64,000 nt of DNA from Brachyhypopomus gauderio (Eukaryota; Chordata; Actinopteri; Gymnotiformes; Hypopomidae). Below, in pieces: positions 4,141 to 63,200 of the stretch (position 1 is the first letter of the stretch; every line of letters begins with the position of its first letter). Under the pieces are notes generated by a model. It was given only the letters and a program-made list of their open reading frames with translations. It was not told where the DNA came from and did no database searches. The stretch covers positions 7,562,193 to 7,626,192 of the forward strand of contig NC_135211.1 in NCBI RefSeq assembly GCF_052324685.1. Direction: 5' to 3'. The position numbers were made by a program, and so were the translations under genes.

Positions 4141-6498
4141 GATCTGAAGGAGCCAAGTATGAAGCAGGTTGAGGAGGTTGTCAGGGCAGCCCGCTCGGCT
4201 TCTGCACCAGGGCCAAGTGGAATTCTTTATCTCGTCTACGAGCACTGCCCAGGGCTTTTACGGCACCTGTGGAGGGTTCTGAAGGTGATTTGGAGAAGCG
4301 GGAGAGTGGCCGACCAGTGGAGGTGTGCTGAGGGAGTTTGGATCTCGAAAGAGGAAAACTCAAGAGACATCAGTCAGTTTCGCTCCATCTCACTACTGAG
4401 TGTAGAAGGGAAGGTTTTCTTTAGCGTGGTCTCATGAAGACTGACTAAGTTTCTCCTCAAGAACAGCTACATCGATCCATCAGTACAGAAAGGAGGAATC
4501 TTTGGTGCACCCGGCTGCCTGGAACACACAGGAGTTGTCACGCAACTGATCAGAGAGGCTCATGAGAACAGAGGCGACCTAGTTTTGTGGCTGGACATGA
4601 CCAACGCCTATGGGTCCATACCACACAAGCTGGTTGAACTTGCTCTTCACATTCACCATGTTCCCAGTAAAATCAAGGACCTCATCATGGACTATTACAA
4701 TGACTTCAGTATGAGGGTCACATCTGGGTCTGGAACATCGGACTAGCATCGCATAGGGAAAGGGATAATTACAGGCTGCACTATCTCTGTTGTCCTCTTT
4801 TCCCTAGCCATGAACATGGTGGTCAAGTCAGCCGAGGAGGAGTGCAGAGGGCCGCTGTCTAAGACAGGTGTGTGACAACCCCCTATCAGAGCCTATATGG
4901 ATGACCTTACTGTAACAACGTCAGTCCCAGGGAGCAGGTGGATCTTGCAAGACCTTGAGAAACTCAACATCTGGGCAAGGATGAGTTTCAAGCCCGCCAA
5001 ATCGAGGTCCATGGTGCTGAAAAATGTGATCGACAAGTTCCAGTTCTCCATTTCAGGAACTGTCATCCCAACCATCACAGAACAACCTGTCAAGAGTTTA
5101 GGGAAGCTCTTCGACTCCAGCCTGAAGGTCTCAGCAGCCATTCAGAAGGCAAGCTTCGAACTTGGCACCTGGCTCACCAAGGTAGACAAATCTGGCCTGC
5201 CTGGTAGGTTTAAAGCCTGGATCTACCAGCATTCAATCTTGCCTCGCATCCTGTGGCCCCTGCTGATTTATGCAGTCCCGATGACAGCAGTAGAGTACCT
5301 AGAAAAGAGGATTAGTGGCTTTCTTCGTAGATGGCTGGGCCTCCCTCGCAGCCTTACCAGTGCTGCCCTCTACGGAACAAGTAACATTCTGCAGCTCCCC
5401 CTTAGTGGAGTCAAAGAAGAGTTCATGGTGGCACGCACCAGGGAAGCCCTACAGTACAGGGATTCGAAAGACGGCATGGTGTCAGCAGCTGGCATTGAGG
5501 TGAGGACAGGAAGGAAGTGGAGGGCGAAAGAAGCAGTGGAGCTGGCAGAGTCACGCCTTAGACAGAAGGCATTGGTAGGCACTGTGGCAACAGGTAGAGC
5601 AGGTGTGGGTTACTTTCCAAAGCCCATCATCAGCCAGACCCATGGAAAGGAAGGACACCATCTGATCCAGGAGGAAGTTGGAGCGGGTGTGGAAGTGGAG
5701 CGAGTGAGTAGGGCAGTGGGTCTACGACAACAAGGAGCATGGATGAGGTGGGAGAGTGCACTACAGCACAGGATCACATGGACCAACATCTTGCAACCAG
5801 ATTTCCAGCGGATTCGCTTCCTGGTACAAGCCGTCTACGATGCCCTACCAAGCCCAGCAAATCTCCATGTGTGGGGAAAAAGTGAGACACCCTCCTGCCC
5901 TCTGTGCTTGGGTAGAGGCTCTTTAAAACATCTCCTCAGCAGATGCCCGAAGGCTCTGGCAGATGGTCGCTACCACTGGCACCATGACCAAGTACTCAAG
6001 ACAGTCGCTGGGAGTGTGGCCTCAGCCATTAGCTCCAAAAAACAACATGATCTCAAGATGGCAATCTCCTTTGTCAAAGCTGGAGAACAACCCAAAACAC
6101 AACAACAGAAGACAACTGGCCTACTCCACACAGCACCTGACTGGTCGAACCTGGAGAAGCAGCTGAGGTTCCCTCAGCACATCGCAACAACAACCCTCCG
6201 CCCAGATATGATCATGACCTCTCAGTATACAGAACAGCTGATCATACTGGAGTTAACAGTGCCCTGGGAAGAACACATTGAGGAGGCCAACGAGAGGAAG
6301 AGGGCTAAGTACCAGGAACTGGTAGAGGAATGCAGGGAGGGAGGCTGGAGGACCTTCTACGAGCCCATAGAGGTAGGCTGCAGGGGATTTGCCGGCAGGT
6401 CTCTGTGCAAGGTCTTGAGTCGCTTGGGCATCATAGAAGCAGCAAAGAAGAGGGCCATCAAATCCACAAGTGAAGCCGCTGAGAAGGCCACCCGGTGA
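4141..6498 (+). pseudogene. LINE reverse transcriptase with R2-type restriction-like endonuclease (5'-truncated, stops)
   Basis: One continuous frame runs from about 4141 to 6498 and is broken only by in-frame stops at 4435-4437, 4744-4746 and 4873-4875. The last 533 codons (4897-6495) are uninterrupted. In order it carries an RT start (SAPGPSGI), an RT palm segment (LVLWLDMTNAYGSIPH), and a YMDDLTV catalytic box at about 4894-4914. A thumb region and a C-x2-C-x8-H-x4-C knuckle (CPLCLGRGSLKHLLSRC) follow. A PD-(D/E)XK-like nuclease (RPDMIMTSQ...LELTVPWEE) and a GCRGFAGRSL motif close the frame. RT followed by CCHC knuckle and restriction-like endonuclease is the layout of early-branching LINEs (R2/NeSL/Hero and relatives); I cannot name the clade. 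The final TGA (6496-6498) may itself replace a tryptophan codon, since similar residues continue for about 10 codons. It lacks the 5' part and is surely inactive. Confidence 0.85.
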
Positions 6499-9099: not shown

Positions 9100-11052
9100 A
9101 TGCCACGATCTTTCTTGGTGAAAAAACACCTCAGTCACAAGAAGCCAAACTATGGCAAGTTGGATTCAAAGAAACACGGTGAGTTTTTGCACCCTTGCCA
9201 CTGTTTTATATCAACCATCTATATCAAACTCGTGATCAAACAAATACATAAACCAAACTGTACTAGACTATTTATCTGTTTTTTTTATCGTAGTTTAGTT
9301 ATTGTCTCTGTGAACTCAAAAGTTTATTTTTCTTGAACTAACTAGTCTGTCTGGCACCTCTGTGGATTGTATTTTGAAACCTTGATTCAAAGTGTGATAA
9401 TAACTATGCGCTCCTCAATACGAATATCCTGCGCATTCAATTAAATAAACACGGCACGTTAAGAAGATCGTCCACGTGGGCTGGCAGCGATGATCTAATG
9501 TTGATATTGATTATACTCACTCTATAGTTTGCTGATGCTCTGTGCTGCAGACGACTCAATAATGGAGAGATTCAAGGCAATCCTTTGCAACCAATACGGT
9601 AAACGCGGCTGGGCTTTAGCAGGTGCAGGGTCCAACACAAAAGAATAACTTATTGTTGCTCCTCGCTTTGGGGGTTCTGAAGGGTCCTATTAAGCCCAGT
9701 GAAGGGGGCAGTAGGTGCCCTCCGAGGTTCCTTTTACCCCACGACCCGCCTGAAATCTGTGGTTTTGTTCCAACGCTTTCTCTTGAGCAAACGGGCCCCT
9801 TAACCTCTTCCGAGAAAAGGACGCGCTTACTATTCAGTGGTGTAAGGATGGAAAACGCGATGAAATTATCTGGAATTAAACGCCCAGGCAGCAAATATTG
9901 GGGAAATTCTCTGTCTGAGGCGTAATCTTTACTATAGTAGAAATGCGATTTAAATGTCTCCACTTCACTTCACAGGATTCCAGATTGGTTGAGTTTAGAG
10001 ATTTTAAAGAATTGTTTTTTCGGGAGTGATATTAATATATCGTAATAATTATCTTTATTTTATTGTTATTTTCACAAAAAAAAACCAAACCCAACTATTT
10101 AGTAGTTTGAAATATTTCATTATTTCTTTATATAAATTGATAACCTGATGAGACAAGCTGAAAAATTGAACTATAGTTTTACTAATGCATTATCTTAATT
10201 AATCTCTCCTTGTATGTATTGTGTAAATATTATTAAAATAAAAGTACTTTATCCTTTTAAGGATTGCAGTCACAGCCTTCTTATCAAAGTGAAACTACAT
10301 CATGACCTTTTGGGAACTGAATGAAAGTTTGAAATCTGACATTTATCCTTTCAGTGATTGTCAAGGGAATCTCAGAGATTGACAGAAGCCTTATTGGTGA
10401 TTCACTTTACAGATGACGATACACACATGACCCATATGCATTCGGCGTGCTCCAGACCTTGCCGCTTGCATCCCGAGGAGATCCCGCTGCCTGACCCGTG
10501 CCCCATGACTCCACCCGTACGCACCATCGTACACACAAGTCCCGCCGATCCAGTGATCCACCCCCAGTCTTCCTTGGACCCTAGCCCTCCATCCGAAGGC
10601 CCGGCACCGGGTCTCACCTATCCACTCCCAGCGAGTCACTGCCTCCTCAGAGAACCGCAGTCTGCCCTGACCCTGTTGGACCTGGCTGGGACACAGCCAC
10701 TGGAGAACAGTCACAGTGGAGGACGTGTGGAGGACGGAGGGGTGCCCGTGGTCACCGTGTCCCTGCTAGGGCTCGACCACTCCGGCGGGAGCAGCAGCCA
10801 GGAGCGCTTTGAGTGTTTTGACTGCCACAAAGCCTATTTCACCTTCTCAGGCCTGGCCAAACACAGACAGCTCCAGTGTGAGTGGCAGTGTCAGAAATAC
10901 TTCAGCTGCAAGTACTGTGAGAAGGAGTACGTCAGCCTGGGGGCTCTGAAAATGCACATCCGCACACACACGCTGCCCTGTGTGTGTAAGCTCTGTGGAA
11001 AGGCCTTCTCCCGACCCTGGCTTCTTCAGGGACACATACGTACACACACAGG

Positions 11053-11094
<42 letters not shown>

Positions 11095-11644
11095 CTCACA
11101 CACACAGACAGAGTTTTACACACCCTCATATACTTGAGAAGCATGGAAGATTTTGTTTTCACTAACAATGAGTGTACTGTAAAAATAACTTGTCTTAGCT
11201 GCTCTAAAATTATTACTGAGATGAACTGAAGAATAATCCATTAACTGAAATTCAGTTAACCAAAAAAAAATAGTAAAAATTAAAGTTTATAACTTTTGAA
11301 GTTAGCCGTTAATGCAACTTGCAACTTTTAAATACTTGACACTAGCTGAAAGAAAATCAATTTTAAAAGGAGTTAATTAGCCTAATATGTGTTTTTTGAG
11401 GGTTTGGGGAAGAAGGGTTTCTAGTTGTCAAGATGTAAATGCCCCTGTTCTGATCTCGGCAGGTGAGAAGCCGTTCTCTTGCCCTCACTGCAGCCGGGCG
11501 TTTGCCGACCGCTCGAATCTGCGGGCCCACCTGCAGACGCACTCTGACATTAAAAAGTACCAGTGCAGAAGCTGCTCGAAAACGTTCTCCCGGATCTCCC
11601 TCCTGTCCAAGCACGAGGAGGCTGGCTGTGGCCCGACGGCCTGA
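9100..11644 (+). CDS. snai3: Snail family zinc finger transcriptional repressor 3
   Basis: Three coding exons are 9100-9178, 10413-11051 and 11463-11644, all GT-AG and in phase, giving 299 aa. The protein opens with the SNAG repression motif [10 protein letters not shown], which defines Snail/Slug/Gfi proteins and recruits corepressors such as LSD1. It has a proline-rich middle and five C-terminal zinc fingers: F1 C161/C164/H177/C182, F2 C192/C195/H208/H212, F3 C218/C221/H234/H238, F4 C246/C249/H262/H266, F5 C274/C277/H290/C295. [19 protein letters not shown] is the Snail signature across finger 3 and finger 4. It would act in the nucleus on CAGGTG E-boxes. snai3 is preferred over snai1/snai2 because of the neighbours rnf166-ctu2-piezo1. 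The exon 2 acceptor (ag at 10411-10412) was chosen because the one at 10353-10354 gives a frame that stops. The exon 2 donor runs directly into a (CA)n tract. Confidence 0.88.
9179..10412 (+). other. snai3 intron 1
   Basis: The donor is GTGAGT at 9179 and the acceptor TTTACAG ends at 10412. It contains only short ORFs with no recognised domain. An open stretch on both strands at about 9616-9963 looks like a repeat fragment but I cannot name it. Confidence 0.6.
11056..11091. repeat. (CA)n microsatellite at the snai3 exon 2 donor
   Basis: The tract starts five bases after the exon ends (AG|GTATACACAC...), so the 5' splice site merges with the repeat. Confidence 0.9.
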
Positions 11645-29822: not shown

Positions 29823-29912
<90 letters not shown>

Positions 29913-29921
29913 CATAGTAGT

Positions 29922-30001
<80 letters not shown>

Positions 30002-48129: not shown

Positions 48130-51100
48130 ATGTGTCAGGTTGATGAAGAGTTCAGCGTCTGCTTAGAAAAGACACCTGTGCCGACGTAAGTTCACTTCAG
48201 GATGGTTAGATAAAGTCAGCTGCAAGAAGACCTTCATTCATACAGCCTAACACAGATGTCACAGCAGCTCTAATGTGTGTGTGTTCCTAGGGTCTCCAAG
48301 AAATGCATGAAGTGTAAAGAGAACACAGCAGTGCTGATTATCCGCGTGGGAGATGCCTTTTGCAGGTAGATTTGCAATCCAAGCTAATTAGTATCAAATC
48401 AACCCATTATTCAACAGGTTATGTTTCATGACAGTATTTAACTTCTAATATTACTGGTCATAATGCATCATGACAAGCTGCAGGATTGTATCCGCTTAGC
48501 GTGATACAGGTTTTTGGTCTTTGATCAGGGAATGCTTCAAAGAATATTTCTTACACAAATTTCGAGCGATGTTGGGGAAGAATCGTGTCATCTTTCCTGG
48601 AGAGAAGGTAGGCAGAAATCTAATGTAAACAATACCTGCAGATCTTCTGCACAGCATTCAAACTCTTAACGCTGTTCTTCTAGGTGCTTCTGGCTGTTTC
48701 TGGTGGTCCGGCATCTATTTCCATGTTAACCCAAGTTCAAGAGGTATGGACAAGCATTACATCAAGTATGATGTCACGTGACATAATAAACAATGATTTG
48801 ATGTGACTAGGTTTTTTAATGAATCACTCTTTGCAGGGTTTAAGTCGGAATGCCCTAAAGAAGCTCAGATTTGTGCCCGGCATTATCTACATAGACGGTA
48901 ATTGCAGTTTTAATATTTGAAAGTGATGAACACTGGAACTTTTCAAAAATACAATGTAGTGGCAATATTGAGAACTGATTGACTGACATATTATTTCATA
49001 ATGTTTCCAGAGGGTGGTGCCTGTGGTCAGAATGCTGAGGAGAGGGAGAAGACACTGTCTCAGTTGGAGACCATCTTCAGAAAGACCGGATTCCCTTACT
49101 ACATGGTTTCTCTAGAGCAGGTAACCAGGCTTGGGCAAGAGTAATGTAATCACCCATACTGTATAGGGTGACATGATAAAGATACAAATGTTGTTTTATA
49201 ATTGAACTATTTTGCAAAGACTCGCAGTAGAGCAAAATGATTACAGTAATGGATTCTGATGCTAAAATATATATAGGAAAGCGTGCATTATTTGACATTG
49301 TTCGTTCACTTGTGACATGGATCATGTGAATGACAGGACTCATCAAAATACTGAAAGAACATTCTGGAAGAAAATTGGTCTGTGTGGTTACAGCATACGT
49401 AAAATATTGTGATTTGTCGGAGTGCTCATCTGTGTCTTACAGCTTTTCTTTATATCAGTATCTAAAGAAAAGTATCGCAATGACTAAAAACTGATATATC
49501 GTGCAAGCTTACCGCTGACCCTATTCAGACCCTAATGGTGTAAAATGTTGAATCTGTCACTGTGTGACTGAAACCCTTCTGAGTTTTATATCCTCTCAAA
49601 AAAAAACATCCTGCTCTTTTAGCTGCTAAAGTTTTCAGCACTGCAGTTCAGCAAAAGTACTCATACTTCAGGAAACATAGCCAGTCTCCCTCCTACAAGC
49701 TTAAGCACAGGAGCTGGCAAACTAGACTCCTCTGTTGAGACACAGCACTGAAACCATATTAATCAAAGTGCCGTGCAAACTAACATTACCATTACCTGTG
49801 TTTGTTACAGCTTTGATCTTTGTAACATGATTTGGGTCGCATCATTATTTCATCTTGTTCATTTTTTAGCGTGGTTTGGGTGTGAACTCTTTTGTGTCTT
49901 ATTTCAGGTAATTGGATCATCTTGTCCATTATCTCCTACATTGCCAAACAACACCCTTTGATGCCGGCAAGCAATTGTTGTTACTTAGATAAGAGGAAGC
50001 CCTCTTTGTCCTCAGCAGTTCTGAGTTGTGGCTATGTTTTGGCACTGGCTGATCTAACTGGTGCGGTTCTTGTGTGCATGGCTGCATCCCAGGTCTTTGG
50101 TCTTCCTGACTCCACTCTGGAGCCTGTGTCCTGTGGTCCAGAGAGGCCAGGCTCCAGCTATAAAGAAGCAGTGGATCGATACATTCAGCAGAAGGAGCTG
50201 GAGCAGAAGCTGGGGGAGCTGGCCGTAGAAGAAACCCAGAATGCAGTGGATCTTCTCAGTGTCCAGGCCTCTCGGGTTCCCCTTGAGCACAGCCTAGCCC
50301 TGGAGAAACTCTTCTCTTCTTTGAAGACCCTGACAGCCAAAGACGACATGCTGCAAACGCTGAGGTGAGCCTTACTGTCAGAGTTGATCAGTGACTGATC
50401 AGAGGTCAGCTATTGGCTAATATTTTTAATTTTTTGAGTGGCAGTCCAATCTCAACCTAAGCAAAGATGGTGGTATGTGTAAAACTCATGTAAGCTCTAC
50501 TTATACCAGTGGACAACAACTACCTCCATGCTACAGCTATGTCGGAGTTACTGCCCTGTTTAAAATGGTCTGCCACGCAAGCAATATCTAGTGAGTGCTG
50601 GAAGGTAGCTGGCACATTATTTATGCATTTAAGGCACTACAGTAGGTATCTGTACACCTGCAAAACTATGAGATGTATCAGGACATTTTGTTAAGTTGTT
50701 CAGGAATTTTCATCGTTTGAAAAAAAATCCAACAAAGGTAAAGCCAAAAAAGCAGATTTTTATTCATTGATATTTTAAAGATATTTTCTCTTTTGCAGTT
50801 AATTTCTTATATCCCCCCTCATGTGAAAAGGGAGTTATTTGTAAGGCTTGAAGGTTTTGTTTTGGTCCCCATCGTAAACACACTGTACACATTATGGAGC
50901 TATAGAGAAACCCGTCATAGTAGACACTTGAATGGCGGAGTGGTGGTGTTCTCCAGTTCTCTCTGTGTGAGTTCTCTCCTGTCTCTCATAACGCTGCCCC
51001 CACCCCCCACGTCCTCGCTGCCTCTTCTGTGCTGCCCCCACGTCCTCGCTGCCTCTTCTGTGCTGCCCCCACCCCCGTCCTCGCTGCCTCTTCTGTGCTG

Positions 51101-51263
51101 CCCCCACCCCCCACATCGTCGCTGCCTCTTCTGTGCTCAGTCAGCACCTGAGGCTGAGTCATAAGAGAAAAGCAGGGCCTTGAAGTGTGCTGGGAGAGCT
51201 CAGACTCAGTCAATAACTCAGGAGTGCATGCAAAGTTTAATGAGGGAGAGCAAAGTGTTGGGG

Positions 51264-51354
<91 letters not shown>

Positions 51355-51520
51355 GAGAGGGGGGGGGGGGAGCGAGCGAGCGAGCGCGCATAGCAGAACG
51401 TTAGCAGCTGAGAAGAGCTATGGCCTTCCTCCAGATTTCCCATAAAAGCTGCAGAGATGTTCCAGTGGATGTATCTTGCTGGCCACCTCTTCACATATGG
51501 CACTTCTCATGCACTCATGG

Positions 51521-51605
<85 letters not shown>

Positions 51606-51752
51606 GGGAGTAGGCAGCACCTGATTCTACACACTGCCCGGCTGAATGGGTATTCCAAGGTGATGATGGGAGACAGCTGTACACGGCTGGCTATCAAGCT
51701 GCTCACTACCATCTCTCTGGGGAGAGGGGCAGCTGTGGCAGCTGACACGGTG

Positions 51753-51785
<33 letters not shown>

Positions 51786-52288
51786 CTGTTACAGTGGCAA
51801 AAACAACTTTGTTGAGATTTGGGGAGCTGTTAAAAAAATTAACACATGCATTATTGGTGGAAAGTTGTGCAGGTGAAGAAATGGAGGAGTGCAGGCCATT
51901 CCATCCATCCACACACACACACACACACACACACCCCATGAGCAACAGCAGTGCAATCAGAACACAGACTAGATGTAGTTAATAAGTGTGTGTTTGCTGT
52001 CCTCTACTGGCAGGGTTTCTCTGATGCTCGGTATGGGGACGTGGTGATCGTCCGGCCCATGAGAGACTACTCTTCCAAAGAGATCGCCTTCTACAACCGC
52101 CTGTTTGGCGTGCAGTCCCTTTTCATCCCGGGCCTGGACACCAGGGTGAGAACGGGTCTCTAATGAGGCTGGTACCCGCCCCTGGTTGCCGTTAGCGCTG
52201 GAGCTCTCTACCGATGAAGGCAGTGATTATCCCTTCACTCATGCAAATCTCTTATTACTGCCGGGGTGTAATTACACAATTCATCATG

Positions 52289-52344
<56 letters not shown>

Positions 52345-55300
52345 TAAGTAAAAGTTGAATGGCAGTAAAGTGCCCTTCCACTTTGGGCCCAGGGCCATAC
52401 TCCCTGCACTGTTTTGTTGCTGTAAATTGATTCTCCGCATTCATTAAAGTGAAAGGGCGGGGCTATGGCTGACTGCACAGCCTGCCCGTCTTCCAGCAGG
52501 GGGCGGGGCTTGCCCGCTCTGATCCCTCCTCCACCGTGTCCTCATTGGCTCTGCTGCACCATGAAAGCCTGGAAGCCAGTTCTCTTTCATGTGTCAGTCA
52601 GGCTCAGGCTTTGGTGCACACCAACTCTGCTGGCTCTGTGAGTTTGCTCCAGTGCACTATTGGAGTATAAGGAGTTTGGATCCAGTTCATCAGACCTGGA
52701 GCCCCTCTGTCAGGAGAGCAGCCGACTCTGAAGTGACCCGAGACCATGCACGTTTCATTCAACTTTGTAATATGTTGTGATACAGAAACTAAAGGAATGC
52801 ATTGCCCAAAATTGCTAATGCTTGTGATATCAAATGCCGGTCATTAAGGATGCATTAGCATTGGTCTTTTCTAGCTTTCTCCTCTACTTTTCACTGATGT
52901 CAGCATTTTTTAATAAAGGATAGTTCAAAGTGGTTTGGTCTGCATCTGTCTGTATTGGTTTGTCTCCCCAGGCTCCCGAGAAGGCGAGTATCCAGCGTCT
53001 GGCTGAGAGCTTCGTGATCAGACTTCAGGCTGACTTCCCTTCCACAGTCAGTACCATTTACAGGTAGCTATGAGTCAGAAAACCCTCCACTGGGCGTGGG
53101 CTCAGACTCGCATGCCGAGCTTGAACTTCGGGTGTTCAAGTGGTTGTGTTTGTGTTTCCTAGAACAAGTGAGAAGCTCCACACTGCTCGTCCTCTTCAGA
53201 CCTCCACTGCCGAACCTTCTGCCAAGTGTCTGCTGTGTCTGTGTGCCGTCCACAACAAGGCAGGCAAGACAAAAGCCCACGGCCTTTAATAAATGTACAA
53301 TGCGCACATTATGACGCATGGGATAGGTGCGCCTGATGAAATGGCCGGTGATCACCGGAACGAAGTAGATGCGTTTAATAAAGTGGCCAGCACGTTTTCA
53401 TTTTGAAAAGACGCCGCTACTGTTTCGTCTCCAAACGTTTCGTAGACGCGGCCTCTGCTTTCCACGCCACCGTCATCTCCGAGCAGCTGTCTCGGGGCCA
53501 GTTCCGGGAAGAGGCCCGGACGGATCAAGTTCCCCAGGGCCCCTTTGGGACCCCAGGGGCATCCTGCTGTCAGGGGGAGGGGCAGAGCTGTGGGGGAGGA
53601 GGCTGCTGTACCACGGAGAGGTAAAGCCAGCACGCTCACCTCCCTGCATCCTCCACAGTGGGTGCTGAGTCACGCCACTCCAGAGACGCTTGCTCTCCAC
53701 TGACTCTGCGCTTGTCTCCTCCATCAGGACACCTGTACTTCCAGACCTGAACACTCTCTTGTGCTACAGCTGCAGGCTTACCATTAAAGACATGGTGAGT
53801 GAAGCGGTGCGTGGGACAGAGTGAGCGCTGGACTGCACCCGTTTTGCTGGTACCTGCAGAGCTCCGTGGTAGGAGGGTTTTCTGACAGGGCCGGTGTGTA
53901 CCCACTCCCAGTCCTGAAACCAGCCTCGCATGGAACGTCGGTGATCTTTAACCTCAGGAAGGGCTTTGTTAATTTGCCGATGTATTAGGGGGCCTGAACG
54001 CAGAGAGAGTCGATTGAACAGGGATGTGTGAGAGCTGGAAGTCGCCTGCTTGTGAGACTAATCACGGCTCCTCCCGCAGGCAGCAGTAGACTCGCTTCCC
54101 CGGTACATAACGTCCGAGGCAGAGAGGCGCAGAAGGAGGTGAGTAATGGCGGTGTTAGCTAAGTCAACGTCAACACTCACACTCCTTCACCAAATCCTAA
54201 GAAAACGTCTAGGTCGGATTCATGACGTGTTCTTAAATCGCAGAATTGGTCACATCTATCTTATAATGATAAAATACCATTGTCCTCATGCACATGCTAG
54301 CGGTTCCAAATTAGCATAAGCAATCGGCCACCAATCTTCACAAACAGGCACGTGCCTGAGCGCTTGTACCCAAATGTACGGAAGCCTGTTTTGGCCACAA
54401 GGCTTAATTAATCCTTCAGAATAGCGACTTATTTGTCAAATCTGGCCTGGGGTGACACGACTGGGTTTTTATATTCGGAGATCGAGCCTAGCCACAAAAT
54501 CGTTTTCCTTTAGAAAGAATTGAGCGTAACGTTACTCAATGATTACAAAATGTATCAATGGTAATTTAAGCGAACGTTTGTCTTTTGAATCTGTTTGCGA
54601 ACACACAGCATTAGTAATGGTATTGGGTCACGTGTTCATATTTACTAACACTAAAAAGCTATTTTCATTCTAAATTTTTATTTATAAATCTGTTAACTAT
54701 AAATTATAATACCATAAAATTTTATAGAGGCGTAATACTGTAGCATTATGTTTGTGTCAATATGCTAAATCGCACTGTTTTAATAAACCTGAGGAAAAAT
54801 GGATAAGGGGAATAAAATGTATCAATGCTTTAGTTAATTTATTTAAGTCACTTATTTGCAGCTTCTGATTGGCTCCGTATTCAAATTGCACAATTACAAT
54901 TGCTTACATTTACATTTATGGCATTTGGCAGAGCGACTTACATTTTTATCTCATTTTTTTTTATACAAGTGAGCATTTGAGGGTTAAGGGCCTTGCTCAG
55001 GCACCTCAGTCATGGCCTCAGGTCTGGGAATAGAACCCATGACCCTCCGGTCACAAGACCAGTTCCCTAACCACCAGGCCATGACTGCCTGTTTAGAGAC
55101 ATACTAAATGAAGATGTGATCAGAAATGTAAGAATCGATCGTTTCTCATCATGATGTCAATGTAAAATGTTTTAGATTGAAATGCAATTAAAATATTTAG
55201 TTTGTAAAAGAATTTATTCTCATTAATTCAAAGTGTGTAATTTCAATATGCACAGTTTATGCTGTGTTTTTCCTGTAAGGAAAACCTACTTTCAGTGTGA

Positions 55301-56621
55301 CTGAGAACATGATTCATTCAATGACCGTACACAAGTTGATGGAAATACTAGCTGTGATTTGAGAATGATCACATTTTACAAATGCAGTTATTGAAGCATA
55401 GCCGAATAAAGACTAGCCTCAAACCAGATGTTTTTTCATAGAGTGATGGATTTATTTGTCTGGTCTTACATGAATAAGGCCATCACTATACCTCCCAAAT
55501 CCCCCATTTGAATCTGTTTACCCATATTCACATTGCTCAGTGTGCCATGCTGCCAGTGAGACCTGAGGTGTGAAATGATCTTGGCCAGCATAAAAAACGG
55601 GGTATTTTTTGTACTGGGTGGGACCAGTTCTGTATGAAAGCTCAACATGAATAAGGCCATCAAATTCTCCTTACACAAATTAATCACTTATATGAAAAAT
55701 TATATGTCTTGTCTGTGGCCATTTAAACTCTAAAACCTGAGGACAGACTAAAAAATTGGTTTTCCTTACAGTAGCCTGACCAATTTGGATTTTGAAATGA
55801 CATTATACACTGAATTAATTGAAATAATGTTTTTTTTTCCCCAAAAAATATTTTAATGTATTTTTTTCAATTCACAATAACAGAGCTAATTCTTAACAAA
55901 TATATCACATCTTCATTTAGTTAATCTGTATCTGTAAAATCAAGTGCAGTAAATATGCAACATGAACTTTTATGAATACTGAGCAAACTTCAGCTCCCAA
56001 ATAAGAAGCTGGGAACCACTAAACACACAAATCAGAAGCTGCAAATAAGTGACTAACTTAAGCGACTAACATTGAAACATTGTAGTGGAAATATCCCTCA
56101 GTACTGGCATAGAAACATTCAGGGCTTTAGCCCCACAAGCCAAACCCAAATGATTCCCCCAGGATTTTGAGTTTATTTCTTGAAATGCTTCTCTTTCTTA
56201 ATTACTGTACAATGGATACAGACAGATGTAACTTTATTTTACTGGTTACTGAAACCATGGTTCCCAAGCAACAATGTGAATTTGTATTGGTGTGTTTTAA
56301 AAGACCACAATGCTTTGTAAAATAATAATGAAAATAACTAACAAAATTATAATTTAAGTTCTATAACATCATGTAACTAACTGTAGAATTGAACAACATG
56401 CAAGCAACTATTATTTTGCACAAGCATGTCTGTCCTAACCCACGATCAAATCCCCAGAAAAGGAACCGTTGGTGAATGTCAGCATGTTCACGAGTCCTGC
56501 GTAAGTGGGCATTAAGAAGAACATTCTTAAGATCGGTTGGTGAATTGTGCGTTATAGGGCTCTGTTGAAGGAGCAGGTCAGCGAATTTCTTTTGGAAGAT
56601 GGGGAGGAGGAGCAGGAATAG
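48130..56621 (+). CDS. ctu2: Cytosolic tRNA 2-thiolation protein 2 (CTU2/NCS2)
   Basis: Fifteen exons: 48130-48185, 48291-48365, 48529-48607, 48684-48743, 48837-48897, 49011-49120, 50093-50364, 51611-51749, 52014-52145, 52972-53063, 53163-53263, 53446-53620, 53728-53794, 54080-54138 and 56558-56621. All phases join and the total is 513 aa (human 515). CTU2 partners CTU1 in the cytosol to thiolate U34 of Lys/Glu/Gln tRNAs, using sulfur from URM1. Visible are zinc-type pairs C24/C27 and C43/C46, an ATP-pyrophosphatase-like loop LLAVSGGPAS (72-81), GYSKVMMGDSCTRLAIKL in exon 8, and C-terminal pairs C381/C384 and C463/C466. Exon 12 is Cys/Gly-rich. Oddities: intron 11 uses a GC donor (AG|GCAAGA at 53264), the exon 8 acceptor follows (GT)41 with no pyrimidine tract, and a 38-bp minisatellite starts at the C-terminal codons. 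It is divergent from rnf166 and convergent with piezo1. Confidence 0.95.
50994..51138. repeat. Minisatellite in ctu2 intron 7
   Basis: Four copies of a unit containing CCTCGCTGCCTCTTCTGTGC with variable C-rich linkers (about 28-40 bp per unit). Confidence 0.9.
51267..51337. repeat. (GT)n microsatellite in ctu2 intron 7
   Basis: About 35 GT units, followed by (GA)n, poly(G) and (GAGC)n. Confidence 0.95.
51523..51604. repeat. (GT)41 directly upstream of ctu2 exon 8
   Basis: Eighty-two bases of pure GT end six bases before the exon (CGGGAG|). No pyrimidine tract lies between. Confidence 0.95.
51754..51783. repeat. (CA)15 directly downstream of ctu2 exon 8
   Basis: The tract starts four bases after the exon border (ACG|GTGAACACAC...). 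Confidence 0.95.
52291..52343. repeat. (TG)n microsatellite in ctu2 intron 9
   Basis: About 26 TG units. Confidence 0.95.
53264..53445 (+). other. GC-AG intron 11 of ctu2
   Basis: Joining ...GTGTGCCGTC..GGCAG at 53263 to ACGCGGCC at 53446 is the only in-phase connection that keeps the conserved downstream 'ASAFHATVISEQLS' frame. The donor then reads GGCAG|GCAAGA, a good match to the GC-donor consensus. Reading straight through instead stops after nine codons (TAA near 53288). Confidence 0.75.
54903..55092. mobile_element. Teleost dispersed repeat (SINE- or MITE-like)
   Basis: TTACATTTACATTTATGGCA, TTTGGCAGAGCGACTTACAT, GGGTTAAGGGCCTTGCTCAG and CTAACCACCAGGCCATGACTG follow one another. This is a very common interspersed repeat in fish genomes as I recall it. 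The class is not determined here. It lies in ctu2 intron 14. Confidence 0.6.
55093..56557 (+). other. Rest of ctu2 intron 14
   Basis: AT-rich intronic DNA. A short direct repeat 'ATGAATAAGGCCATCA' occurs near 55469 and 55646. No coding exon was seen. The minus-strand ORF at 56361-56849 is mostly the complement of the minisatellite. Confidence 0.5.
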
Positions 56622-56801
56622 GAGCTCTGTATGGTGCAGCCGGAGAAGATTGGGTGGAGGAGCTCTGTATGGTGCAGCAGGAGAAGATTGGGTGGAGGAG
56701 CTCTGTATGGTGCAGCAGGAGAAGATTGGGTGGAGGAGCTCTGTATGGTGCAGCCGGAGAAGATTGGGTGGAGGAGCTCTGTATGGTGCAGCCGGAGAAG
56801 A
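56595..56801. repeat. 38-bp minisatellite at the ctu2 stop codon
   Basis: Units of AGGAGCTCTGTATGGTGCAG plus CCGGAGAAGATTGGGTGG repeat about 4.5 times with A/C variation. The first, divergent copy (GAAGATGGGGAGGAGGAG, 56595-56612) is the end of the ctu2 coding region. Later copies lack 12 bases (CAGGAATAGGAG) that include the stop. Confidence 0.9.
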
Positions 56802-58089: not shown

Positions 58090-60198
58090 TTAGTCGCCGT
58101 TCTTCTCCCTGGTCCATTTGATCATGGTCTCTGGCGAGCGGTAGAGGAAGATCAGCTTGGAATACAGTTCCTCCTCCAGCACAAGTTCTCCCGTCTCACG
58201 CACCAGGAAGATGTCCGTGCACAGCTTGAGGATGCGGTCCACACACGGTAGCTCCTCGAACATGATGGAGTGGGAGATCTCGCTGAAGAAGCCTCTCACA
58301 AATTTGCCGATCACCAGAACCACCGAGACGTACAGACCCATGATCCTACAGTAGGGCAAACCACCACAGTCAACAACGCAGTTAGCCATAAACTTTGATG
58401 TACTGCCAACTATGTTAACATTTGAAGTAAAATTTTAACACTTTAATACACCAAAATTGCAATGCTTCAGTTTAGAAGGTCGGGGTGGCCAGAGCTTATG
58501 TTTAAGACCTGGGTATGGTTACTCCCTCAGCTTTCATCACAAATGGCGTCAGAAATGGGATGCTACTGTGATCGAGTCCATCACTCAGAAAGATAATGCT
58601 GGTGCTCTGCCTGCTGTGTCAGGGCGTTCACGTTTAGCACCCGGAGGAACCAGGTTCAAGACCCAGCTGTGGTTGCTGCATATGCATCCTGTGTGTGTGT
58701 GTGTGTGTGTATTCACTCCAGATGGGTTGAATGCAAGAAGGGGATCATTAAAAAGTTCCTGTACCTCTAGAGTGCTGCCGAGTTTAAGCATTTTTCCTGA
58801 TCTATAACCGCTGCTGATTCATCTCTGTGGATATTTATAAAGCATGGTGGAGAAGGGAAAACACTAATCTCTGTCGTGCCCACGAGGAACGCAGGCTGGT
58901 GGGAGCAAACAGCCCCTCAGGGCAAAGCCGTCGTTCGGGATTTATTTCACCGTGCAGGTGTGAGAGTTAGTGTTCCTGAGGCCTGGAGCTTCTTACCCAT
59001 ATCCTGCCAGAAAGCCCAGACTGGGTGGACTGACTTTGTCGTTGAATATGACCATGGGTAAGACCCCACAGTCTGCTGAAGACTGGTCACAGTCTGCCAT
59101 GCTGATATCCCACCACTCCTGGGCCGCAGTTCCGTTCTGAGAGACGTCCCTCATTAAGGTCAGCGTCACGTCCAGGTAGCCCTCTTCATCTCCTGCCACA
59201 AACCAACCCCCACCCCAAAAACAAACAAAAACCATCAGCACCTGTTCAAAGCCGCTAAAGAACTTCAATGTCTACTTGAGCCTGAAATGTTAACTTGGCT
59301 AACAGCGAGTGAAACGTGACTCGTTTGCATCACGATGTCTCGTCCCCATCTGGTCCCATTCCCTCGCTCCTAGCATTTTTGGCTTCTCACACTGAAGTAC
59401 TGTTTCAAACTTCATTAGTTTCGAACAGATTGAATTTTCTTAATGATCTTTCTTTAAGCGGCTGCCGTGGAGCAGATGTAACTGCTCAGTCATGTGTCCG
59501 TGGTGAACGCAGTGCTGGGCTCACCCTCGTACAGTTGGTTCACGGGCTTCGCCTCTGCTCCGTTGGGGGCTCGGATGTAGTTGGGAAACATGTGGGGCAC
59601 TCGGCTAGGGGCAGAGAAGACCACACGCGGGGGTTAGCTCAACACGCACAGGGGGGTTGGCCCAACACGCACGGGGGCTGGCCCAACACATACCGGATCG
59701 ACCCACAGATGGGGTTAATCCACACACGGGGCTAGTCCACCACACACACGGTGTTAGTCCACACACTGTGCACTAACCCAGACAGGACACTCTGCCATCT
59801 CTAAGCTAAGACTTACACTGGCTCTGTGCGTTTCCCCAGCAACAGCGAGGCCAGGTCTGCTCTCACATGGTTTCCGTGCTCCAGGTTGATCGAGTGTTTG
59901 TCAAAAGTGTTCTCCACCGTTCCACCCTTCCCCAGGTCCCTGCGAAACACACACAGAGTTTTATATATCGTCAAGATGTGGGAATAACATATATATGTAA
60001 CATACAACATTCTTATTACATAATGTTTTTTAAGTCTAATCCCAACCTTTCCTTACCTTAACTCTTTAACGTCAGTAAAATGTTTTGGCCTTCCGAGTTT
60101 TGCAAAAACCAAATGCACATCTTCTCTAAATAGTATTTCACCTCTCTGTGCTCAGTCTGTCTATGGTTTCACATTATATCTCACTCTCTTCCAATCTT

Positions 60199-60240
<42 letters not shown>

Positions 60241-63200
60241 CTGGAAGGTCCAGGCCAGCCGTAGGGTCATGTCAGCGGGGCTGTCCAGAAGTTCTCTAAT
60301 GACCTCCTGTCTGCTGGGCGGGCTGATCCTCCATACGGACCCCGAGCTGCCCTCGATGTTGGCTGTGACAATGTCCTCATAACCGTACAGTGTTATGAAC
60401 TGCATGGCCACCTGCATGAAATGCATACAGTCAAATTATTGCAATAATTCTAGCAACCCATGTCATATCCAGTGTACTAATAGGGTGTCCACTGGCAGAA
60501 TTGTATTGCTTAGATGCAGCAACTAAAACCCTAGCTGTATTAATAGCAACATAATGGAAGCTAGAGAGACCAATGTGAATACAGTAAAATCTAAAATTAA
60601 CTCCATTTATAATTTCCATGATACATCATGATAATATTTCGTTGCTGTGTTGCATATTTGAAATGCCTAGAGAAAACCGAAATGAAAGTACTGTATAATC
60701 TATGATGTGGATCCTTGTGCACTGCTAATAATCTGCTTATTAGTCGCATCTATTTCAGCACTAATATAGCCAAAACAAAACAACTGAACCCCCACAACTG
60801 GCACACGTAGACCACAGAGGAGGTGGTACTCACTGCATTGTTTCCGAACGTCTTGGTGAGGCTGTTGTAGTTGTCTTCGGTAAAAGGCTGTATGGACTGC
60901 TGTTGTGCACTCATGGTAAACAGGGGCTGAAGAGACAGACACACAGTCACGTTCCTTCATCTTTAATAGCTGCTCATGCGTGCCATTACCGTGTTGAACT
61001 TCTAGAATATTCTACAGCCGGTTGCCTTTAACGGAAGCCTGATGATGATATGTGGACAGTTACCTCGTAACCTCCCAACTTGACCGTGACCGTGACGTCC
61101 ACGGGATGGTTGACCACGCCCACAACCGATCTGACCAACGAAATGAAGAGTAGCGGGAACCAGATGATGCAGATGAGGAAGATGATGATGAGCCCGCCCA
61201 TTCCGTATTTCACGATCTTTTTCTTTTTCTGGCCCTTTGGCTGAGGGTTTTTCTGCAGAGACAGAGGTTGGGATCCAGAACTCAGCAAAATCACAGCATG
61301 GAACGTCTTATTTTGTCTTGCAGCATCCATAACCATTAATACTGCTGAGTCAGTTGTGTTGGTAGCAAACACTGAAAAGAAGTCTCCAGCAGTACTGGTG
61401 TGTGTCTACATTCTTGTAACTGGTTCATATAATGAGAACCATAACTCTGCACCGAATTTGGAATCAACGGCGTCCGCTACACACGTCCGTTTACCTTCTC
61501 CGCCTCTCGGCTGCACTTTATGATGAAGATGTTGGCGTAGATGTCCTCCACGCACATCCAGTTAGGCAGGGACAGGGTGGTGTCGGTCCAGACCCAGTCC
61601 ATCACCGCCCGAAGCTCCACCAAGAAGGGAACCAAGCGGAACCTGAAAGCAAACTCCTGAAGTTATCTGAAACTTCCTTCTCTCGGCTGACGTTCAGAAA
61701 AGTTTTTCAGCTGAAAAAATATTAGAGCTGTGAAAAATCTCACCCTTGGAAGAGGAAAAGGTTGAGGTGGTTGTACTTCTTAGTGAGGAAGTTTCCAAGA
61801 ATGCGGGTGGGATAGCCACAGCGGATCTGATAGGCTGACAGGGCGAAGTAGATGCACTTCACGAAGTACCACAGCTGGGCCACCGAGTTCTGTCTCAACA
61901 TTCTGCACAGATCAAGACGTAATACAGCGGCTTTGAGATCCAGCTGCTTCCATTTTGACATTTTTTTTTCTTGTGCCTTTGTTTTTGTTTTTTTTAGTAA
62001 AGGCAATTTTTTTTTTTTTACCTCCAAGATGCTTAGAGTCTCCTTAGTGTACTGATGATAACAATCATTCACGCACACGTCCACCGACACTGACTGAACT
62101 TAAACTCTCCCTGACCCCGATCACCATCACTGACCCCGCGGTCCAGCATTACATCAGTCAGCTGGAGTCTCATTCATGCTTTTTGAACACTCCAGTAGAA
62201 GTGCTACAGTAAGTCCCAGTAAAATGCCTCCTAGTAAATATTTCACATCATTATTCTGACCCTCGACACTTTTATACATACATTAATGATTTATGGCACA
62301 ACGGCAGAACTCTGGCCCCTTCCTCACCTCTCGGTAACGGCAGGCAGGATGAAGAACATCCAGAGATGGATGCCGAGCACCAGGAGGAGCTGGAAGATGA
62401 GTTTCCCCAGCAGGGCCTTGCGCAGGTAGAGGGCGCGGTCGATCACCATGGTGCTGAACTGGATCAGGAGCATGACGAGGAAGGCCTCGGGCACCTGGTC
62501 CTCCGACAGCGTGGAGGCGATGTCCGCCGCTGCCGAATGTTTCTGGGGGAGCATTGCACACAATTGGGCTCACGCGCTATGTGGCTCACGCGCTATGTGG
62601 CTCACGTGCTATGTGGCTCAAGCGCTAGGTGGCTACGCGCTAGGTGGCTCACACGCTAGGTGGTTACGCGCACACTAGGTGGCTCACGCGGTAGGTGGCT
62701 ACGCACACGTGAGGCAACGCGCCCCCTTATCAAGATTTGTTTGTTTTGATTTTGATTGATTAAACCAAGACTCAATCGGTGCAATTTGATTTTGGATAAC
62801 TGGGTCAAGACAGCGTAAAGCTTAGACATGGTTATTTTGTAGACAGCTAAAACATGCAAAAAATAAGATTAATCAAAAGCGATGATTAAGATCAATTTGA
62901 TGTATCTGATAAAAACAAAAATGCCAAATTTTAGGTGTTTTGCTGAGATCTTAAAATCAGTGCCACAGCATCGCAAACATCTTTATACACATTGAGACGC
63001 AGCCTCAAGACTCACTCCAAAAGCCCAGAATCCGAACACGATGATAATGAAATCCACCACATCAGTGAGGAACATCAGAGCGTACACGTCAGTGGCGGCC
63101 CGATCCTCCTCATCGCGTTTCCTCTTCAGGAGTTTCTGGAAGAATCTGTGTATTGGCATATAGACGTTCCTCACTCTGAGAGAGAGGGAGAGACAGAGAG

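Follow-up and report, generated by a model that had tools for sequence, protein, structure and literature searches.

Exon 8 of ctu2 in Brachyhypopomus gauderio lies directly between a long GT array and a complementary AC array, and this repeat-bordered exon is another case of an arrangement found at other exons of the same genome. Judging from the sequence, it is somewhat probable that exon 8 is essential, constitutive and normally included, with repeat-type splice sites and a distant branch point. The arrangement is probably a tolerated repeat-type splice site and not a special switch, and measurable skipping of the exon has a modest chance of occurring. The main rivals of this reading are repression by a GU-binding protein and pure chance, while looping of the exon or circle formation is weaker.

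Exon 8 of ctu2 and its bordering arrays

The window, which is the whole stretch of 64,000 nucleotides analysed here (G000:C1:7562193-7626192 of a 796.5-Mb assembly), contains, on its plus strand, the complete tRNA-modification gene ctu2. Based on the exon model and its translation, the gene has 15 exons and encodes 512 residues, and Pfam CTU2 (PF10288) covers residues 333-466 of the product (E 3.6e-19). All 13 of 13 matches at E <= 0.01 in a protein search of the genome fall on the window's own gene, so that ctu2 is present as a single copy. The same search was inspected for a second copy or retrocopy that might record splicing, and none was found at E <= 0.01. A PDB search with CTU2 returned six distant TtuA/thiolase-type sequences (E 2e-6 to 0.008) over query residues 20-181, which are uninformative for exon 8.

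Several further features were observed in the window. The ctu2 stop codon (56619-56621) contains the first bases of a 38-bp minisatellite (56620-56801, 4.8 copies, 98% match), which would belong to the 3' UTR. On the minus strand, tail to tail with ctu2, lies the 3' portion of a Piezo gene (58093-62099); it matches the Piezo_cap and THU9/anchor Pfam families, and its closest PDB entries are Piezo1. Additionally, (CA)43 and (GT)38.5 at 29825-29999 are separated by 12 nt and could fold into a long dinucleotide hairpin. Two further open frames are one of 540 aa (4876-6495), which has a retroelement-like zf-RVT match below threshold, and one with C2H2 zinc fingers (10358-11134).

Exon 8 (51614..51749, plus strand) is 136 nt long and codes for Q239-T283 in 45 codons (QHLILHTARLNGYSKVMMGDSCTRLAIKLLTTISLGRGAAVAADT), including the GDSCTRLA segment that the preliminary description had placed there. 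Three tandem AGs lie 3' of the GT array: GAG at 51608-51610, TAG at 51611-51613, and CAG at 51615-51617. The TAG (51611..51613, plus strand) was taken as the acceptor from the reading frames of the three starts and their scores. Exon 7 (50093..50364, plus strand; donor GAG/gtgagc) ends in phase 2 (CTG AG), and the TAG start therefore yields the junction TLR-QHLIL and the residues Q239-T283. Use of the GAG gives TLS-RQHLIL, in frame, with an exon of 139 nt, and use of the CAG shifts the frame. Without exon 8, the frame is shifted as well and translation runs ...TLR-VSLMLGMGTW-stop, in agreement with the frame shift that the preliminary description had foreseen.

The orthologous human exon offers a second view of these boundaries. 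The human CTU2 variant c.873G>A, p.Thr291, in exon 8, is described as "affecting splice site" (PMC10859881) and is also written p.(Thr247AlaFsTer21) (PMC10423509). We infer that the latter name reflects loss of exon 8. From the variant names, human exon 8 would span Thr247-Thr291, 45 codons, the same count as in the fish, and c.873G>A would be the last base of the orthologous exon. The phase of exon 7 together with this 45-codon match gives an exon 8 of 136 nt with an acceptor nine bases past the repeat. The earlier values, 139 nt and an AG six bases after the repeat, correspond to the GAG three bases upstream and are replaced. In the homozygous state, c.873G>A is reported to cause a severe syndrome (PMC10859881, PMC10423509), and large constitutive skipping of exon 8 would thus be costly.

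Both bordering arrays are present exactly where they had been described, and both are 100% pure. The 3' end of intron 7 is occupied by (GT)41 (51523..51604, plus strand), which contains no A and no AG and ends 9 nt before exon 8; CGGGAGTAG follows the repeat. The 5' end of intron 8 carries (AC)15 (51754..51783, plus strand), separated from the end of the exon at 51749 by four bases, gtga, as previously noted. Further arrays on the plus strand are (GT)35.5, the second GT array of intron 7 (51267..51337), (CA)12.5 in intron 8 (51910..51934), and (TG)26.5 in intron 9, beyond exon 9 (52291..52343). Exon 9 (52014-52145) is therefore also flanked by complementary arrays, with (CA)12.5 at 79 nt upstream and (TG)26.5 at 145 nt downstream. 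The first 902 nt after exon 7 contain no GT/AC array of at least 8 units. A C-rich minisatellite with units of about 31 bp (50993-51137) also lies in intron 7, and introns 7-9 are thus repeat-rich.

When the 23 arrays of the window were placed at random relative to the 13 internal exons, at least one ctu2 exon had complementary arrays no more than 10 nt from its two ends in 0.011% of 200,000 placements; the analytic expectation for the same placement is about 1.6 exons per 200,000. The five arrays within 1.1 kb around exon 8 form a cluster in themselves (P = 0.007). Together, the genome searches and confirmed exons presented below show that the flanking arrangement is commoner at real exons than under the random-placement null.

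Splice sites, branch point and predicted pairing

Both splice sites of exon 8 are weak by simple score matrices. On the acceptor matrix, exon 8 has the lowest score of the 14 ctu2 acceptors (-3.5, the next being -1.4). The region from -23 to -4 is 40% pyrimidine, again the lowest of 14, and its longest pyrimidine run is 2, tied with exon 15; the acceptor indeed lacks a pyrimidine tract, as first described. The donor gtga (51750..51753, plus strand; ACG/gtgaac) is the second weakest of 14 ctu2 donors (5.0 on the donor matrix). Elsewhere in the gene, exon 11 apparently ends in a GC donor, CAG/gcaaga (53261-53269), which has the lowest ctu2 donor score on the same matrix (4.3).

The nearest A at least 15 nt from the start of exon 8 is 92 nt upstream, and because the GT array has no A, an adenosine branch point would lie at least 92 nt upstream. 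A scan for the branch-point motif yUnAy points to two CTCAT motifs (51506..51518, plus strand) with candidate adenosines A51509 and A51517, 105 and 97 nt from the exon start. The length of the A-free array would consequently determine how far the branch point lies from the AG, barring a branch point at a base other than A. A51522 and the G that opens the GT array together make an AG (51522..51523, plus strand), which is the upstream limit of the AG exclusion zone and a possible competing acceptor. Ignoring tandem AGs within 12 nt, this zone is about 90 nt long by the definition in PMC1431707. Intron 7 would then be spliced through the distant branch point A51517 or A51509, with the AG-free GU tract serving as a spacer where a pyrimidine tract would usually stand, and the acceptable AG after the GU tract, the TAG, would be used.

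Similar to the distant-branch-point exons of Gooding et al. 2006 (PMC1431707), exon 8 follows about 90 nt that hold no AG other than the tandem acceptor, with A residues found only beyond the repeat. It differs from them in that its zone is below the 100-nt cutoff, the spacer is one dinucleotide repeat, and the branch point is a motif guess. Among human exons with an AG exclusion zone of at least 100 nt, 68 of 235 are reported as cassette exons, compared with an average of 19.8% (PMC1431707). By analogy, this cassette excess at long zones would favour some skipping, with ctu2 exon 8 just below the cutoff.

The two arrays are strongly predicted to pair across the exon. The RNA was folded with ViennaRNA, with neither pUG quadruplexes nor proteins modelled. 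In 5 of 5 contexts of 321-2041 nt, 29.9-30 of the 30 bases of the CA15 array pair with GU41 across exon 8, and the isolated 30-bp GU:CA duplex has a free energy of -58.5 kcal/mol. For comparison, CA15 with the last 30 nt of intron 8 reaches only -15.5 kcal/mol, and the expected number of CA15 pairs is 29.9 across the exon versus 0.0 within intron 8. The first 101 nt of intron 7 give only scattered pairing with GU41 (-13.6 kcal/mol). Neither neighbouring intron supplies a good partner repeat, given that the intron 7 donor is without AC and intron 8 has only a short GT run near its acceptor; the facing arrays are therefore predicted to pair across exon 8. The fold of (CA)12.5 depends on the context: in the longest one it pairs with (TG)26.5 of intron 9 (22.3 of 25), and in two shorter ones with the (GT)35.5 array of intron 7.

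The preliminary description had proposed that repeat length could tune CTU2 levels and tRNA thiolation. In silico, at least 29.5 of the 30 CA bases are still paired when the GU array is cut down to 15 units. CA15 therefore limits the strength of the duplex, and a change in GT length would alter the spacing between branch point and AG but not the pairing. Moreover, the folding model leaves the donor core gtga unpaired. Positions -3 to +6 of the exon 8 donor are unpaired at 45% with both arrays, at 60% without the GU array, and at 24% with the GU array but without the CA array; the fall from 60% to 45% indicates that occlusion by the duplex is modest.

Pairing across the exon had originally been taken to favour skipping or a circular RNA. 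The duplex itself is strongly predicted, whereas the consequence is not supported: the same sandwich, often lacking a pyrimidine tract, borders exons of core genes such as U5-116K and STAT. A model in which the 30-bp duplex loops exon 8 out, giving skipping or a circular RNA of 136 nt, is highly doubtful. A single-exon circle of this size would be small. The almost certain prediction of the duplex in all five contexts and the absence of a competing partner in intron 8 speak for looping, as does the report that complementary regions across exons suppress inclusion in yeast (PMC9198270). In contrast, the same flanks occur at confirmed coding exons of functional proteins, with CA15 present the GU array takes donor accessibility no lower than 0.45, from 0.60, and proteins probably occupy the GU array ahead of transcription of the CA array, as the binding data of PMC12697283 suggest.

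Recurrence of the GT-exon-AC order in the genome

To reveal how common the arrangement is, the genome was searched with the pattern (GT)6 N1-12 AG N116-146 GTRNN(AC)5, and counts were compared on those strands where match starts are fixed and cannot slide along an array, with a few starts still doubled. The pattern gave 63 reverse-strand matches genome-wide versus 24 for a backward control. A variant in the other AC phase, which matches ctu2 exon 8 itself, gave 190 versus 82. On the sliding strands, the counts were 359 versus 101 for the first pattern and 818 versus 229 for the variant. The mirrored CA-exon-GT order had 61 fixed-start matches versus 92 for its own backward control, and 199 versus 244 on the sliding strands. 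The backward controls are rough, and that of the mirrored order can match inside a GT array; as the controls are not clean, the recurrence rests mainly on confirmed exons. A GTAAGT donor followed by (AC)8 was not enriched (124 versus 388 backward on fixed starts, 409 versus 1056 on sliding ones), although its control word may be commoner.

Among the matches listed, contigs C1-C4 contain at least 32 distinct GT-exon-AC loci, compared with 18 mirrored ones. Of these 32, 30 were fetched; C4:7402103, a GA repeat, and the repeat-like C4:36804113 were dropped. All 18 mirrored loci were fetched. An open frame did not discriminate as a mark of an exon, being found at 22 of 30 GT-exon-AC and 11 of 18 mirrored loci. 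With one frame per locus, 20 of the 22 open GT-exon-AC loci (L018 and L061 left out) and 9 of the 11 open mirrored loci (the repeat-like L048 and L053 left out) were scanned against Pfam; PDB was searched with two of the GT-exon-AC loci and with none of the mirrored ones. Ten of the 30 GT-exon-AC loci match known proteins, eight through Pfam and two through PDB; a sub-threshold FPP match at L021 was left uncounted. The Pfam-confirmed exons belong to TMEM43, an FXa-inhibition/EGF-like module, an F5/8 type C domain (L030), an UNK-type zinc finger, STAT (L058), a myosin head, a sterol-sensing domain, and CUPID, and the PDB-confirmed exons to U5-116K/eftud2 (L035) and tropomodulin. No Pfam match was found among the nine mirrored loci scanned. 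With Pfam only, the comparison is 8 of 30 versus 0 of 18 (p = 0.018). A Pfam scan of ctu2 exon 8 alone also gave no match, so a Pfam miss is no proof of a non-exon.

The flanks of the confirmed exons resemble those of exon 8. The acceptor is literally (GT)nAG in 6 of the 10, and no A is present for at least 67 nt before 5 of the 10. The STAT-family exon at L058 has flanks close to those of ctu2 exon 8, with (GT)33 AG before it and gtacaa(AC)27 after it; ctu2 CA15 is shorter than this array of 27. In ten open-frame loci examined over 8 kb of sequence, of which five are confirmed by homology, GT41 is exceeded at two, and CA15 exceeds all (6-13).

These counts bear on the possibility that neutral microsatellites abut exon 8 by pure chance and have no influence on splicing. 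The genome is full of GT arrays (752,093 overlapping 30-mer matches on one strand), the arrays cluster in introns 7-9, and the raw counts of the two orders are alike, 63 for GT-exon-AC and 61 for CA-exon-GT, so that polarity is absent from raw counts. The latter result makes the reading of a normally included exon slightly weaker and chance slightly stronger. In contrast, Pfam-confirmed exons occur in the GT-exon-AC order only, this order lies above its backward control with both patterns, and 82 nt devoid of A ahead of the AG would hardly leave the choice of branch point unaffected. We therefore regard chance as a minority possibility. GT upstream and AC downstream may be the compatible order, as a GT array offers no decoy AG and an AC array no decoy GT; AC...GT bridging introns have the same polarity.

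Relation to bridging introns and other repeat-dependent systems

The eftud2 exon indicates that an exon with such flanks can belong to a functional protein. Together with the next exon, it aligns without gaps to the U5-116K chain of PDB 6qw6, differing at one of 81 residues. The gap-free join indicates that a core gene uses a (GT)nAG acceptor devoid of pyrimidine tract, which argues against the view that the lack of such a tract leads to skipping. Furthermore, the 186-nt intron 3' of the eftud2 exon runs from gtacaACAC... to ...GTGTacacag (L035 3896-4245), the anatomy of an AC...GT bridging intron, and in the folding its AC array finds its partner inside that intron (15.7 of 16), with no pairing across the exon (0.0). 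A core spliceosome gene may thus itself be dependent on repeat-type splice sites.

AC...GT bridging introns were reportedly described for zebrafish by Lin et al. in 2016. Like these, ctu2 has AC by a donor and GT by an acceptor, in the orientation of the class, together with no pyrimidine tract and a long perfect complementarity of its arrays. Unlike these, the ctu2 arrays sit in two introns, 7 and 8, and face each other across an exon, while in the class they occupy both ends of one intron; complementary boundary arrays within the same intron are found at neither intron 7 nor intron 8. Fish AC and GT tracts at opposite intron ends are reported to form a structure that allows splicing without U2AF2 (PMC7404189, PMC9198270).

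An exon-wise counterpart of this intron bridge can be envisaged, in which the arrays would pair across exon 8, join its acceptor and donor, and define the exon without U2AF2, with the A-free GU spacer fixing the branch-point distance and inclusion depending on the duplex. We consider such a bridge quite improbable. The F5/8 type C exon at L030 and L033, which is unconfirmed by homology, are perhaps further candidates: these 2 of the 10 open-frame loci with 8 kb of sequence have no downstream GT array and no upstream CA array within 1.5 kb. At ctu2, the same 1.5-kb span contains one downstream GT array, (TG)26.5 in intron 9. Among titles and abstract openings, no literature was found on splicing of fish ctu2 exon 8 or on exon-spanning AC/GT repeats.

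CFTR provides a comparison for a UG tract at a 3' splice site. Similar to the (TG)m(T)n tract of CFTR intron 8 before exon 9, a long UG tract directly precedes the ctu2 exon 8 acceptor, and loss of the exon inactivates the protein. The CFTR TG range is about 9-13 units. In contrast, ctu2 has 41 units, lacks a T tract separating the UG repeat from the AG, and carries no perfect copy of the GGGGAAU silencer in its exon. In a TDP-43-type model, (GU)41 would recruit TDP-43 at about 12 nt per molecule, block the 3' splice site, and lower exon 8 inclusion as in CFTR exon 9, so that the TDP-43 level and the repeat length would set CTU2 output. The RNA-binding part of TDP-43 is reported to bind (GU)12 with a KD of at most 5 pM and to capture it before folding (PMC12697283), and TARDBP is more often bound at longer GT repeats (PMC13174678). 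The effect at CFTR, to which the preliminary description had appealed, is documented: a UG-rich sequence upstream of exon 9, a TDP-43 target, lowers inclusion and leads to skipping, together with hnRNP A1 on an exonic silencer (PMC12171016). The weak acceptor and donor of exon 8 fit this model as well. Against it, the eftud2 and STAT exons are bordered by the same (GT)nAG acceptors, and the CFTR silencer GGGGAAU is not found in exon 8, where only GGGGAGA occurs. Repression of this type is accordingly unlikely at exon 8. For the normally included exon that we prefer, GU-binding proteins of the TDP-43/CELF type and CA-binding proteins of the hnRNP L type would probably occupy the arrays and make inclusion somewhat fragile.

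The GU tract is also long enough for a pUG fold. With 41 units it is above the 12 that one quadruplex requires and the 24 that two require, as in pUG-fold RNAs (PMC12276007), although the folding of the latter is reported in vitro and in C. elegans (PMC12276007). The reported half-life is about 15 min (PMC12697283), which would be slow relative to splicing.

With neither a pyrimidine tract nor a nearby branch-point A at its acceptor, ctu2 exon 8 offers a clean natural experiment on the working of such an acceptor, in an exon whose human ortholog has a splice variant linked to disease. As the arrangement recurs at other coding exons, exons bordered by repeats, in addition to introns bridged by them, would seem to be a class worth counting in genomes of this kind.
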